From Urechis unicinctus (lineage: Eukaryota > Annelida > Polychaeta > Xenopneusta > Urechidae), in contig CM067358.1 in NCBI GenBank assembly GCA_034190875.2, forward strand, positions 42,641,180 to 42,705,179: 64,000 bases of DNA. Reading direction: 5' to 3'. Every line of letters starts with the position of its first letter. The stretch's first letter is position 1. A program made the position numbers and the translations under genes. Positions 28,666 through 64,000 of this stretch are shown here, piece by piece. Below the pieces are notes generated by a model. The model did no database searches and was not told the DNA's origin. It saw only the letters and a program-made list of their open reading frames with translations.

Positions 28666-28741
28666 GACGGCGTCAAAATTGCTTGTCTTGTACAGCAATG
28701 CTTGAGGGCCCCCTGTCGTTGGGGTCATCATGGCTACATTA

Positions 28742-28876
28742 CATATATATATATATATATATATATATATATATATATATATATATATATATATATATAT
28801 ATATATATATATATATATATATATATATATATATATATATATATATATATATATATATATATATATATATATATAT
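28742..28876. repeat. (TA)n microsatellite
   Basis: A pure AT dinucleotide tract about 470 bp upstream of SLC22 copy A. Confidence 0.98.
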
Positions 28877-29350
28877 GAAACTAGATAGCTATAAAAAGCC
28901 ATATTTGGACATCGACAGCAGCGGAAAATTATCAGAAAGTTTTCATTTCTAGATACTTTATCTAGTGTACTGACTTTATCAAATAGTTGATTAAAATTCC
29001 AGCTATATCAGATCCCTGGGATGGTCTTAAAGCTTTTGGTATCACTGAGTGGAAGCAGAGATAAAGGCTAAATGATAACGACCTTCATTTACATCAGTAT
29101 AACTTGGCTAATCTATTTCATACATAGATCTAAGATTGTGCTATTCGCCATGATATGACCTAAGCCGGTCTGGTATGACCCATAACTTACAAGCATCATT
29201 ACCATTAACAAATCAACACATGGAACTGTAAACATAAACTTTACTATTAACCCACACGGGATCCACGATACCTACGCTTATTGACTGGCATTCTGGAACC
29301 TGGACTAATTCCTTGTTATCCAGGTGTGACATCTGTCAGGTGGGGCGAAG

Positions 29351-32300
29351 ATGAGGTTTGATGAAGTGTTGGATTATGTAGGAGGCGCTGGTGCCTACCA
29401 GATCTGCGTTATGTTCTTCATCCTGGCGCTTGGGTTGGTCAGCGTCGATGCCATACGGATGAACTTCGCAGGGGGTGCAATGGAACATTGGTGCAACATC
29501 CCAGCTCTGGCGAACCTGTCGCATGATCATCAGAAATACGTCGGGGTTCCCGCAAGCAGTGACGGAGGATACAGCAGCTGTTATAGATACCCACTTAACT
29601 ATTCTCACTATTCACTGGAAGAATTGATCAAATGGAACCGCACCGACAGGACAGGAGACATACCGGAAGGGGCGTGGCTTAGGTGTGACGCTGGATGGAC
29701 GTATGATCGCAGTCAATACATATCTACCATAAGCAGCAAGGTTAGTCGTAATACATGAATCTGTCATAAGTCATATGGGTGTGTAATTTAAAAAAAAAAG
29801 AATTAACACGAATGGCGTTATATGCATTTGCAACAGTGACAGTGTGCTGGGGCAGATTCAAGTGATCCGAGTTGTTAATGGACAATCCAATGATAATATT
29901 GTATCTTCTCAACTAAACCCTGGATAGTAAGGGTATTGTGATCTGACTTGTCTTCGGTTGTTGACTGGGTTTGGATCCTGGTCACTTCGGGGTTCTGTCC
30001 GAGGTACCGGGCTTTGTCTTCGGAATGAGACTACGAGGCTTACGAATTTCTTTGGTTTCTTCGATCTTCACTGGTACGCTCGCGAATAGTTTGCCGATCT
30101 GGTGTCTTGTGGGTGAGGTGTGTCTGATCTCTCTTGGCAGTGTATGTGTCTATGTGAGCAGAAACTCAGTGTTTAAAGAAAAATGAATGAAAGGTTATGG
30201 TAGGCAATTTCGAGTGGTTCAGAGCAGCTTGGACGTATCTGAACTGGTTGGCATTTTCTTGTATTCATCGCTGATTGGATAACGTAACGAAACGTTGGAG
30301 TGGGACATATTTGACAAGGCAAAGTATTTATTTGCAATAAGGGGCACCAAATATGCGGGTCTGAATGAGTGTGCAAATAACAAGCATTTATGCGTATATA
30401 AAAGCAAACAGTTCTATAACAACTACCAAGATAAAAAAATAACAATACAGCGATGTCTCAAACAATATAGCATGCATGTTTTTAGACAGAATTTGAATCA
30501 TTATACAATATCTATACAGTTTTAGAGATATAACTTCATTAAAAGAGTGTGCATTGTATATGCGCGTTGTAATGATATCACTTGATCAATTTCTTCCCCA
30601 TATAAAAGACCGTTGTTTGAGTAGGGGATCCTGCGTCCCGTTCCTTGTCTTTTCCACGCGGCATCCAGGTCCGAAATATGAATTAATATTTGTACAGTAA
30701 TAATAATGAACGCCAGCAGATGTGGCGATAAACAAGTTTTTACACGAAATCACCCGAGTTTTAATCCACAGAAACGTTCATGTAAATTATGTACAATATG
30801 AATGGTTAGGCAGAAGACAACAAATGGATATGATTACTCACATAAAATAGAAAATATATTAGTTTTTAGAATAAAAACAAGATGTCATATACACAAACAA
30901 GGAGAACAAATAACGTGGAACCTACATTGAATACAATATACAGAAGTAAAAATTCTATAAATGTATTATGATAACACAATAATACATAATGTAGCCTTAG
31001 GGAAAGTATAAACGTCAGTTATTTATAGAGTGCGCGGAATTATTTACTATTATCATCTTTTATCATCTTAGTTCTATTATCACCTCAAATTATCTTAGTG
31101 CTATTGTCACCTTACATCATCTTAGTGCTATTATCACCTTACATCATCTTAGTGCTATTATCACCTTACATTATCTTAGTTCTATTATCACCTTACAATT
31201 ATCTTAGTGCTATTATCACCTTACATTATCTTAGTGCTATTATCACCTTACATTATCTTAGTGCTATTATCACCTTACATTATCTTAGTTCTATTATCAC
31301 CTTACATTATCTTAGTGCTATTATCACCTTACATTATCTTAGTTCTATTATCACCTTACATTATCTTAGTTCTATTATCACCTTACATTATCTTAGTGCT
31401 ATTATCACCTTACATTATCTTAGTGCTATTATCACCTTACATTATCTTAGTGCTATTATCACCTTACATCATCTTAGTTCTATTATCACCTTACATTATC
31501 TTAGTGCTATTATCACCTTACATTATCTTAGTGCTATTATCACCTTACATTATCTTAGTGCTATTATCACCTTACATTATCTTAGTGCTATCATCTATCT
31601 GTCGAAAAAAAATATAAAACCCGTGTGTTTCATGTCATTCCTGGACCAATGGATGGTGAATGAAAATGGGATAAGCAATGACATATTGTTGCGTGTTATT
31701 GTTGTGTTATTGTTATGTGTTATGTTTGCTATTCAGTGGGACCTGGTGTGTGACCGCGGATGGCAGGTACAGTTGATCTCCACTCTATACATGGCTGGCT
31801 GGATGGTAGGCTGCATAATCACAGGCCCATTCTCTGACAGGTAATCTTACCATCGATCTGCTGAATCAGCACAATATACCACACCGTGTTCTCATTTCTG
31901 ATTGCTTGGCTTTGATGTAATGCGCACTTCAATTTGATCTGAATGTTATGTTTATTTTTGCTTTCGTTCGGCGACACAAGGCTTGGCCGGAAAACGACAG
32001 TTCTCTGTTTACACACGCTGCGAACAGGAGCCGCTTTCCTTTGTCTTTACTCTCCATCGTATATAGGTTTTGCCGTTGGGCGAGTCCTCATGGGAATTAG
32101 CGCCCCTAACGTCAACTTGGTTATGTACGTCATAGGTAAGGACACGATAGTAAAGTGAGAGAGATCACATACACACACACGCGCCAACACTCGCATACAC
32201 ACGCGCGCACACACACACACACACACACACACACACACACACACACACACACACACACACACACACACACACACACACACACACATATATATATATATAT

Positions 32301-61394: not shown

Positions 61395-62610
61395 TTTCCT
61401 TTTCCTTCAAGACGTCTTGTTCCAGATTTGCACGTCTTGTTCCGAGATTTGCTGTTACGGAGTTGATCCCAGCACACTATGGGCTTTCACCTTGGCCCGT
61501 TATGGTCCTGGTACAACTTACTCGTATACCACTGACCAACAAACCAACCAACCGACTGAGCTTCAACTGACCATTATATAACCACGATCGCACAGCCTCA
61601 GTTTCATGTGATGACTCGTCCAAGTGCGACCATGGACTCCCGCGTGGTTCGGTTTGAGAAGCAGACGATTTCATTTGGTGTCATGTTTTTTATGATAAGT
61701 ACATGGCGATGAGTTGAAGGTAATTGTTGTGCCGAGGCAGTTATCAGTTCAAGGGTTCCTGCATCAGTAATAGGAGCCAAAGATACTGTATCCGTGATAA
61801 GAGAGACACTTATCTGGATCACCCTTACGACGATGGTTAGCCATAGACACTGCAACGAGATCAACAACGACGGGTCCAAATTAATGTTGAGAATAATTAA
61901 CTTTTTCCATCTTTTTATTTTCATCTGTTCGACATTCAGTCTCCCAGTGGTCTGTAAAGGGACCAGGATCCTACGAGGACCTTCATAAGACAGAACGGTT
62001 ATGTTCTGCGACATCCCTTTCTATTAAATTGTCATTAAATATGTGCTTGCGATATATATCATCACCATGATTATCTTTATCATCATCATTATCATTATTG
62101 TCATCATTGTCCTCATCTTAACCCACCTCCCCATCGTCGTTGTCTCGGTTAGCATCTTCTAAGATTATTAACCGCCCCACGCAGAAAGTGCTCTGGATTT
62201 GACCCAGTATGGACCACAGGAGCTCCATGCTTAGCTTGAACTACATATCTGTGACCAATAATGAAAGTGAACCCAAACTACAGGCGCTCCATGTTAGCTT
62301 GAACTACAATAAATAAGCTCTGGATTGCATGGACCACAGGCGCTCCATGCTTAAATACATATCTCAGCAATAAACAATTTAGGTCAAAGTATCAAAACAA
62401 CCTGTCAAAAGCATCACATGCCGAGCATGTTCTGTTGCACGAAGAAATGCGAAGTCACTATTATCGCGTCGATCGCGTGAGAATGAGTGTCAGAAGGTGG
62501 AGCCTAAGGGGTTATGTCTTCACCGCTGTGATGATAAATGCCAACACCACACGAAGAAACCTTCTACACATAATTCTCGTATCTGTTCATCTCTCTCTCA
62601 ATTGGAATGT
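61395..62610 (-). other. 5' flank of SLC22 copy F
   Basis: It mirrors 38020-39227. A GAT/ATC-rich stretch lies at 62050-62120. At 62190-62350 a segment containing GGACCACAGG and GCTCCATGCTTA is locally triplicated, which is not seen in the copy C flank. It probably holds the promoter; no core element was identified. Confidence 0.5.
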
Positions 62611-62614
62611 GTTG

Positions 62615-64000
62615 TAATGGACGGATGTTCGAAAGTGTGACAGCAGACGCAGTGTCTGATCTACTCTCGTTTAATGACGGATGTTAGTATGACGATGACA
62701 GCAGACGCAGTGTCTGATCTACTCGTTAATGACGGATGTTAGTATGACGATGACAGCAGACGCAGTGTCTGATCTACTCGTTAATGACGGATGTTAGTAT
62801 GACGATGACAGCAGACGCAGTGTCTGATCTACTCGTTTAATGACGGATGTTAGTATGACAGACAGCAGACGCAGTGTCTGATCTACTCGTTAATGACGGA
62901 TGTTAGTATGACGATGACAGCAGATGCAGTGTCTGATCTACTCGTTTAATGACGGATGTTAGTATGACAATGACAGCAGACGCAGTGTCTGATCTACTCT
63001 CGTTTAATGACGGATGTTAGTATGACGATGACAGCAGACGCAGTGTCTGATCTACTCGTTTAATGACGGATGTTAGTATGACATGACAGCAGACGCAGTG
63101 TCTGACTCGTTACTCGGATGTTAGTATGACAATGACAGCAGACGCAGTGTCTGATCTACTCGTTTACGATGTTAGTATGACGATGACAGCAGACGCTGTG
63201 TCTGATCTACTCGTTTAATGACGGATGTTAGTATGACGATGACAGCAGACGCAGTGTCTGATCTACTCGTTTAATGACGGATGTTAGTATGACGATGACA
63301 GCAGACGCAGTGTCTGATCTACTCGTTTAATGACGGATGTTAGTATGACGATGACAGCAGACGCAGTGTCTGATCTACTCGTTTAATGACGGATGTTAGT
63401 ATGACGATGACAGCAGACGCAGTGTCTGATCTACTCGTTTATTGACGGATGTTAGTATGACAATGACAGCAGACGCAGTGTCTGATCTACTCGTTTAATG
63501 ACGGATGTTAGTATGACGATGACAGCAGACGCAGTGTCTGATCTACTCGTTTAATGACGGATGTTAGTATGACGATGACAGCAGACGCAGTGTCTGATCT
63601 ACTCGTTTAATGACGGATGTTAGTATGACGATGACAGCATGTGTCTGATCTACTCGTTAATGACGGATTACGATGAGCAGACGCAGTGATGATCTACTCG
63701 CAATTGACGGATGTTATGACGATGACAGCAGACGCAGTGTCTGATCTACTCGTTAATGACGGATGTTAGTATGACAATGACAGCAGACGCAGTGTCTGAT
63801 CTACTCGTTAATTGACGGATGTTAGTATGACGATGACAGCAGACGCAGTGTCTGATCTACTCTCGTTTAATGACGGATGTTAGTATGACGATGACAGCAG
63901 ACGCAGTGTCTGATCTACTCGTTTAATGACGGATGTTAGTATGACAATGACAGCAGACGCAGTGTCTGATCTACTCGTTTAATGACGGATGTTAGTATGA
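62615..64000. repeat. 56-bp minisatellite running off the window
   Basis: About 25 units containing GACAGCAGACGCAGTGTCTG, ATCTACTCGTTTAATGACGG and ATGTTAGTATGACGAT. Most differences are small indels (CGTTAATG, CGTTTAATG, CTCGTTTAATG) and a few shortened units (about 63100-63180, 63640-63700). Each unit includes the imperfect palindrome CAGACGCAGTGTCTG. Confidence 0.98.

Follow-up and report, generated by a model that had tools for sequence, protein, structure and literature searches.

An inverted triplication of a convergent SLC22-type gene pair in Urechis unicinctus and its probable origin in one replicative rearrangement

Introduction

How does a convergent pair of transporter genes come to lie three times side by side, with the middle pair turned around? 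The question is raised by a 64,000-nucleotide stretch of the Urechis unicinctus genome (hereafter the window; all positions are counted from its first letter), in which an SLC22-type gene pair (1> <2) is repeated at 28682-62616 as unit, inverted unit and unit.

Results

Layout of the array

Self-BLAST of the window matched the three units with each other at E-value 0: units 1 and 3 on the same strand (32119-35887 against 52005-55687, 88.7%), units 1 and 2 on opposite strands (32378-35885 against 49647-46319, 89.5%), and units 2 and 3 likewise on opposite strands (45783-49646 against 56221-52313, 90.7%). The 5' flanks also matched in inverted orientation (38020-39101 against 62616-61451, 86%, E-value 0). 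An earlier note on this DNA had proposed the order 1> <2, 2> <1, 1> <2 and mutual homology of the 3' intergenic pieces and of the 5' flanks; the order was upheld by self-BLAST together with the exon models, and self-BLAST recovered the same homologies at the same coordinates.

The order of segments across the array is A-B-C'-B'-A-B-C, giving a copy number along the unit of 2-3-2, with A present twice, B three times and C twice. Unit 1 consists of segment A (28682..30982, plus strand), which covers gene 1a from its 5' flank through exon 1 and over most of intron 1, and segment B (30983..37998, plus strand), which holds the rest of 1a, the 3' intergenic piece and copy 2a as far as gene 2 intron 4. 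Two pieces of this A, 28682-28876 and 29185-29618, matched 50902-51099 and 51492-51925 at 92-93% in the self-BLAST, and the segment B that follows has matches of about 88-95% in both other units. The inverted unit 2 is formed by C' (38020..42870, minus strand), spanning gene 2b from the 5' flank to exon 4, and B' (42871..50901, minus strand), with 2b exons 5-10, the intergenic piece and 1b exons 10-2, whose last part is an old dispersed repeat lying in gene 1 intron 1. Pieces of C' within 38020-42599 matched 62616-58126 in inverted orientation (self-BLAST), and its outer end is present only in units 2 and 3. Unit 3 includes segment A (50902..52004, plus strand), where the 5' flank of 1c is followed by a broken exon 1 and the stretch from the end of exon 1 to exon 3 is deleted, segment B (52005..58127, plus strand), and segment C (58128..62616, plus strand), with exons 4-1 and the 5' flank of gene 2c. 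A 56-bp minisatellite begins just beyond this last segment, and gene 1 intron 1 contains a 27-bp minisatellite (31047..31595) that recurs in unit 2 (50282-50665).

Units 1 and 2 are incomplete: a cut in gene 2 intron 4 deprives unit 1 of the 5' part of gene 2, and one in gene 1 intron 1 deprives unit 2 of the 5' part of gene 1. In the alignments, units 1 and 3 have their left end in common (28682/50902) and units 2 and 3 their right end (38020/62616). Only two novel junctions are present, 37998/38020 and 50901/50902. Of the palindromic array described in the earlier note the alternating orientation stands, but not a symmetrical palindrome, given the order A-B-C'-B'-A-B-C with units 1 and 2 truncated.

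Intact and dead gene copies

Exon-by-exon models gave three intact copies, 1a (29351..34748, plus strand, 579 aa), 2b (39228..46754, plus strand, 588 aa) and 2c (55221..61394, minus strand, 588 aa), each with ten exons, GT/AG borders and zero internal stops. The other three copies are dead. Copy 2a (35422..37911, minus strand) is reduced to exons 5-10, and exon 9 has lost its 3' end. Copy 1b (47382..50140, minus strand) retains exons 2-10 without exon 1; exon 4 has lost 1 bp, and exons 8 and 10 contain stops. Copy 1c (51657..54579, plus strand) has lost its start codon, all of exon 2 and nearly all of exon 3, and it carries frameshifts as well as stops in exons 1 and 7. Both the division into three intact and three dead copies and the presence of two subfamilies among the six had been read from the letters before, and both are supported.

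The best structure match of 1a in a PDB sequence search was OCT2 entry 8et9 (residues 2-538, E 4.5e-80), and the best 26 of the 49 distinct PDB sequences matching 1a were SLC22 members. This search used 1a as its sole query, and the SLC22 membership of the other copies follows by homology. The Pfam families PF00083 (Sugar_tr) and PF07690 (MFS_1) were above cut-off in 1a and 2b, the two copies searched. Judged from these sequence matches, the array genes are SLC22-type transporters with the MFS fold domain.

Junctions and repeats

At junction 1, from B to C', the junction alignments left about 21 bp between the segments (37999..38019). The B side stops at the point of gene 2 intron 4 that in units 2 and 3 is occupied by an (AT)n run. 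When the 21 bp were compared with the sequence just past C, an equal score was obtained in 121 of 1000 shuffles; with the ancestral sequence lacking, clear microhomology could not be established. Long inverted low-copy repeats were not seen at junction 1, the only inverted repeats near the ends being 6-bp arms.

Junction 2 (50901/50902) joins the dispersed repeat of intron 1 directly to A. What remains of this repeat (50732..50901) begins within B' and stops at the start of A. At least 39 further genome matches to all or part of it were found (40 of the 110 candidates scored); all 12 fetched copies align from 50669-50725 through 50899-50907, and eight of them also match unit 1 at about 30983-31045. 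A reading of 50730-50901 as junction filler or as an inserted element was ruled out, as the stretch is ancestral repeat sequence continuing B'.

Unit 1 carries 6-bp arms at its left end and unit 3 at its right end, with spacers of 10 and 35 bp. Arms were present at three of the four ends searched: the homologous right ends of units 2 and 3 have differing 6-bp arms, and the left end of unit 3, homologous to that of unit 1, has none of this kind. As 48% of 362 randomly chosen 85-bp windows contain arms of at least 6 bp, the short inverted repeats at the array ends are at chance level and constitute no evidence.

Divergence among the units

Odd-one-out sites among the three units were counted in three aligned B blocks, leaving out the AT-rich intron parts and nine sites showing three different bases. 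The unfiltered ratio was 123:108:108. Filtering dropped 34930-35085, sites at most five columns from a gap and same-label sites less than 6 bp apart, the last step reducing 284 sites to 222, and gave 74:72:76 (chi-square p 0.95). These counts are near equal, and so no inner branch is seen among the three units. Indel events (8:16:15) were less even than the base changes.

Among array copies of the same subfamily, all six pairs had a synonymous divergence of 0.038-0.066. For this and for the exon trees, 1c exon 1 was blanked or cut after 264 columns and 1c exon 3 omitted; in the exon trees 2a exon 9 was also trimmed to 111 columns, and C7 exon 6 was omitted from the outgroup. Noncoding K was 0.10±0.03 for A, 0.056 for C and 0.051-0.083 for five of the six B comparisons. 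The point estimate for A exceeds those five B values, yet within error. The outlying B comparison, of units 1 and 3 in the gene 2 half, gave K 0.131; in the pairwise alignment the stretch 36554-36819 reads 52% identical and so probably holds non-homologous sequence. The three units are thus about equally far apart, as either one event or thorough later homogenisation would leave them.

Gene conversion

Relationships among the units are patchy. The clustering of unfiltered odd-one-out sites was matched in none of 5000 shuffles, and after filtering the three measures of clustering were matched in 89, 69 and 1 of 5000. The longest unfiltered run included 24 sites within 34936-35260; in the same interval unit 1 contains a stretch like gene 2 intron 2 (40616-40668, 59702-59649; 91%). 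Trees of the copies made exon by exon showed weak disagreement, and the heterogeneity test was weak for 1a/1c and 1b/1c (135 and 50 of 1000 shuffles, respectively). Heterogeneity statistics for the gene 2 pairs were set aside as inflated by misalignment (78% at 44998-46068 for 2b/2c and 52% at 36554-36819 for 2a/2c).

The clearest case of gene conversion lies in a neighbour outside the array, a diverged seventh copy, 1d, located about 7.5 kb outside the window and carrying conversion tracts in exons 3, 4, 8 and 9. As for the suggestion that the shape of the array favours gene conversion, the patchiness bears out conversion itself, but nothing shows the shape raising its rate.

Discussion

Origin of the array

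What the sequence shows directly is the segment order with its two junctions and 2-3-2 profile, which copies are intact or dead, how evenly the units have diverged, and the patchy relationships; a single event and template switching we infer. That one replicative rearrangement made the array, with the two forms described below taken together, is given a probability of roughly two in three. The ancestral locus would have been 1> <2 ... <1d, and in the simplest form two template switches would be enough. Copying would have crossed A and B in the forward direction and then, at the AT-rich run of gene 2 intron 4, jumped onto the other strand at the outer end of C. From there it would have copied C' and B' in reverse, made its second jump within gene 1 intron 1, landed at the beginning of A and finished with a forward pass through A, B and C, producing A-B-C'-B'-A-B-C, a DUP-TRP/INV-DUP. 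Under such an event 2a and 1b would have been dead from birth, because the junction cuts removed their 5' exons. Copy 1c would have decayed later, while 1a, 2b and 2c remained intact, and short patches would have been exchanged among the copies after the rearrangement.

The other form of a single event is ODIRA, which would have made a full inverted triplication with palindromic junctions at short inverted repeats, one arm being later deleted at each. Losses of about 4.5 kb from 2a and about 2 kb from 1b would lead to the same final layout, and palindromic junctions are absent today, one arm missing at each. Excerpts of PMC10766186 describe such secondary loss of one arm as lengthening the spacer and improving stability, and a figure legend in PMC4689423 shows an arm-loss case. 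The 6-bp arms at the two outer ends of the array would fit, but with their background frequency, and with the homologous ends lacking arms or having others, they say nothing in its favour; three steps are also needed here against two switches in one. We regard this form as unlikely.

Stepwise growth, by an inverted duplication, then a third unit and then equalisation through gene conversion, would agree with the clustering of odd-one-out sites and the weakly discordant exon trees. It would require the outer ends common to units 1 and 3 and to units 2 and 3 to recur by coincidence, and the divergence of A and C, present in two copies, is compatible with that of B, present in three; such a history appears improbable to a similar degree. 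Gene conversion among the units, which is seen, would equalise divergence as well, and is a counterpoint to a single event. An assembly artefact, in which haplotypes or misjoined contigs were placed in alternating order, might be suspected from the repeats and AT-rich runs at the breakpoints. The window contains no N, however, and thus no N-marked scaffold join inside the array; the units differ by roughly 5-10% in noncoding sequence and by unit-specific deletions and disabled genes, and the dispersed repeat runs smoothly up to junction 2, all of which makes an artefact very improbable.

The outcome for each copy is clear, two being cut by junctions and one decayed, with one extra gene 2 as the net gain. 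More tentatively, the array may be a fossil, resolved to the base, of one germline DUP-TRP/INV-DUP event that took hold in an animal lineage. That event would have left two copies nonfunctional at birth, with a third becoming a pseudogene later, and would have been retained for its second working gene 2. If so, a kind of rearrangement described chiefly in disease and under laboratory selection would also contribute to the building of gene families. With both junctions of an old inverted triplication readable, it becomes possible to ask how such structures stabilise and what they leave. A caution also follows, namely that alternating gene order in clusters need not mean repeated inversions.

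Comparison with known systems

This kind of rearrangement is already known from human disorders and yeast; the array would be an old remnant of it. As far as the cited sources go in the parts used here, the inverted triplications described are newly arisen ones, found in patients, tumours or cultured yeast, and a word match in the open-licence literature gave zero papers for inverted triplication with molluscs or for dup-trp with invertebrate. The layout of human DUP-TRP/INV-DUP at the PLP1 and MECP2 loci, as given in excerpts of PMC4352052, is alike in its 2-3-2 copy number, its inverted middle copy and its four copy-number transitions from two junctions. Our array has an inverted middle copy between two direct ones and, when smaller deletions within units 1 and 3 are set aside, a 1-2-3-2-1 profile with the two novel junctions alone. 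Unlike in the PLP1/MECP2 subtype, junction 1 does not lie in long inverted low-copy repeats. The human cases are patient alleles of varying size, one with a triplicated segment of about 254 bp, whereas the present array is old, 34 kb long and part of an assembled animal genome.

The inverted triplication of yeast SUL1, attributed to ODIRA in excerpts of PMC4689423, PMC10766183 and PMC10766186, likewise concerns a transporter gene with the central copy inverted and the outer copies direct, and loss of one palindrome arm is known there as a secondary step. Short interrupted inverted repeats are retained at most of the yeast junctions, whereas any trace here is at chance level. Small inverted triplications in cancer and yeast have the same DUP/inverted/DUP layout, but with median sizes of 148/160/148 bp (an excerpt of PMC13334657) against kilobases here.

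Mammalian SLC22 genes are also clustered, some clusters being primate- or rodent-specific according to an excerpt of PMC4633038, and the SLC22 genes of the present array resemble them in this. Three other SLC22 clusters of the same genome differ from the array in that all 21 of the first-exon matches scored lie on one strand (at least 12 on C9, at least six on C8 at 38.5-38.8 Mb and at least three on C3 at 39.3 Mb). Three further groups on C8 gave strand counts of at least 2+/2-, 1+/1- and 0+/2-, all these counts being lower bounds since 75 of the 362 candidates were scored.

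Gene copies and segment layout

The exon models bore out the earlier note both in its order of the six SLC22-type copies, 1> <2, 2> <1, 1> <2, and in its count of three intact and three dead. The order in the window is 1a> <2a, 2b> <1b, 1c> <2c, the letters marking array copies of genes 1 and 2. The intact copies are 1a (579 aa), 2b and 2c (588 aa each); among the dead ones, 2a has exons 5-10, 1b is without exon 1, and 1c has lost its start, exon 2 and nearly all of exon 3 and contains stops. Residues 2-538 of the 579 of 1a matched SLC22 structures in a sequence search (8et9, E 4.5e-80), and the domain search found MFS domains PF00083 and PF07690 in both 1a and 2b, which are identical at 424 of 578 aligned residues.

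Window self-BLAST divided the array into unit 1 (28682-37998, forward), unit 2 (38020-50901, inverted, 50730-50901 being assigned from repeat-copy alignments) and unit 3 (50902-62616, forward). The units are incomplete as repeats: the segment order across the array is A-B-C'-B'-A-B-C (primes denote inversion), with A and C present twice and B three times. Segment A includes the 5' flank of gene 1, exon 1 and part of intron 1, B is the middle, and C, the right part, includes gene 2 exons 4-1 with the 5' flank. The left end is common to units 1 and 3 (28682 and 50902) and the right end to units 2 and 3 (38020 and 62616), the only two places found by a genome search with this end. A 56-bp minisatellite of about 25 copies (62638-64000) adjoins the array on the right and continues past the window edge. 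Just beyond, positions 64001-71070 read as N; as this run stops on a 250-base grid of the contig, it is probably withheld sequence and not an assembly gap.

The array includes two novel junctions. At junction 1, about 21 bp separate the end of unit 1, at an AT-rich run in gene 2 intron 4 (37998), from the start of C' (38020); at junction 2, B' abuts A at 50901/50902. About 170 bp at junction 2 were considered as filler, which was ruled out. The stretch had at least 39 further genome matches (40 listed including itself; 40 of 110 candidates scored). All 12 fetched repeat copies aligned from 50669-50725, inside B', through 50899-50907, and eight also matched the corresponding end in unit 1 (30983-31045); the stretch is therefore what remains of an old gene 1 intron 1 repeat, and the join is direct. 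The same intron also includes a 27-bp minisatellite (31047-31595 in unit 1, 20 copies; 50282-50665 in unit 2, 14 copies) and, in 1a, a region (29979-30369) matching, at about 70% identity, old dispersed repeats that occur many times in the genome (40 of 283 candidates were scored). Unit 1 alone has a stretch within 34990-35085, in its 3' intergenic piece, that resembles gene 2 intron 2 (91% over 54 bp against 40616-40668 and 59702-59649) and could be a templated insertion or else a small repeat.

Elsewhere in the window, an inverted repeat pair (16065-17005 and 24488-25425) is about 940 bp long and 92% identical; its first copy had no Pfam match in the one frame searched, with X at stops. Open frames of 219 aa (26228-26884) and 169 aa (17462-17968) gave a QRICH1 match (PF25561, E 1.7e-10) and a sub-threshold HAT_KAT11 match (PF08214, E 0.0027), respectively, and the minus strand has a tRNA gene at 23948-24020 (Rfam RF00005, 63 bits).

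SLC22 genes elsewhere in the genome

DNA searches of the 1.19-Gb genome found no close copies beyond the six array genes and 1d, a diverged seventh copy outside the window. Exon 1 had five matches (four in the window and 1d), the gene 2 exon 8-9 piece three, all inside the window, and the gene 1 exon 7-9 piece 15: eight belonging to the array or 1d, plus seven at 68-82% on contigs C7, C3 and C12. SLC22 genes are numerous: a protein search in which 75 of 362 candidates were scored gave at least 88 matches, the array included. The first-exon matches listed for three other clusters, 21 in total, are all on one strand; of the small groups listed on contig C8, two are mixed-strand and the third has two matches, both minus. 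Alternating order is thus not the rule here, nor is mixed orientation unique to the array.

Divergence and selection

In the three B blocks (4553 aligned unmasked sites), odd-one-out base sites among the three units numbered 123:108:108 and indel events 8:16:15. When 34930-35085, gap-adjacent sites and same-label sites less than 6 bp apart were dropped, the base changes were 74:72:76 (chi-square p 0.95). Noncoding K was 0.102±0.027 for A (157 sites; 0.128±0.066 for a second piece of 34 sites), 0.051, 0.066, 0.082, 0.072 and 0.083 in five B comparisons, 0.131 in a sixth that probably includes non-homologous sequence, and, for C, 0.056 overall (0.071 in the 5' flank and 0.046 in the gene body).

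Each of the six pairs of array copies that belong to one subfamily had a synonymous divergence within 0.038-0.066. The intact pair 2b-2c had dN 0.020 and dS 0.052, values that do not by themselves show selection holding these copies. The corresponding values were 0.026/0.066 for 1a-1b, 0.031/0.038 for 1a-1c, 0.027/0.054 for 2a-2b and 0.032/0.040 for 2a-2c, each with a dead member, and 0.029/0.054 for 1b-1c, both dead.

Gene conversion and the outside copy

Odd-one-out labels were clustered: none of 5000 shuffles reached any of three measures before filtering, and 89, 69 and 1 of 5000 did so after it. In gene 1 intron 8, six adjacent variable sites put 1b and 1d against 1a and 1c.

Copy 1d lies on the minus strand of the same genome (G000:C17, about 42712644-42716699, or 71465-75520 in window coordinates). 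It has ten exons and a seemingly open frame, exon 10 having been placed by eye and exons 5, 6 and 9 partly aligned by script. Its third-position identity to 1a was 52% in exon 6, 53% in exon 2 and up to 96% in exon 4 (heterogeneity chi-square 45.3, p 3e-7). In exon 4 it is identical to the dead copy 1c (169/169), and the adjacent introns of the two do not align beyond a few bases. Constraint is no explanation for this identity, as synonymous sites of exon 4 are saturated when genes 1 and 2 are compared. Judged from sequence, 1d is apparently intact; it has diverged from gene 1 outside exons 3, 4 and 8-9, which carry conversion tracts. An older exchange is pointed to by the low dS between genes 1 and 2 in exon 1 (0.46-0.48, against at least 1.0 in every other exon). 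Trees rooted with a C7 outgroup agree with both exchange signals at low support, exon 4 placing 1d among the gene-1 copies (62 with 1c) and exon 1 joining genes 1 and 2 against 1d (71).

Origin of the array

The divergence pattern among the units fits one event, and strong later homogenisation would fit it too. We give an origin in one event, in either of two forms, a probability of roughly two in three. In one form, two template switches would produce the whole A-B-C'-B'-A-B-C layout in a single step, and 2a and 1b would have been without their promoter side from birth. The other form follows ODIRA, the yeast model, in which, as outlined in the available text of PMC10766186 and PMC4689423, a full inverted triplication forms first and one palindrome arm is then lost at each junction; the present sequence fits either form. 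In a background comparison, 6-bp inverted repeats at the array ends were no more than at chance level. The human DUP-TRP/INV-DUP rearrangement of PLP1 has two junctions and four copy-number transitions in the available text of PMC4352052, and the layout of the array equals the one described there.
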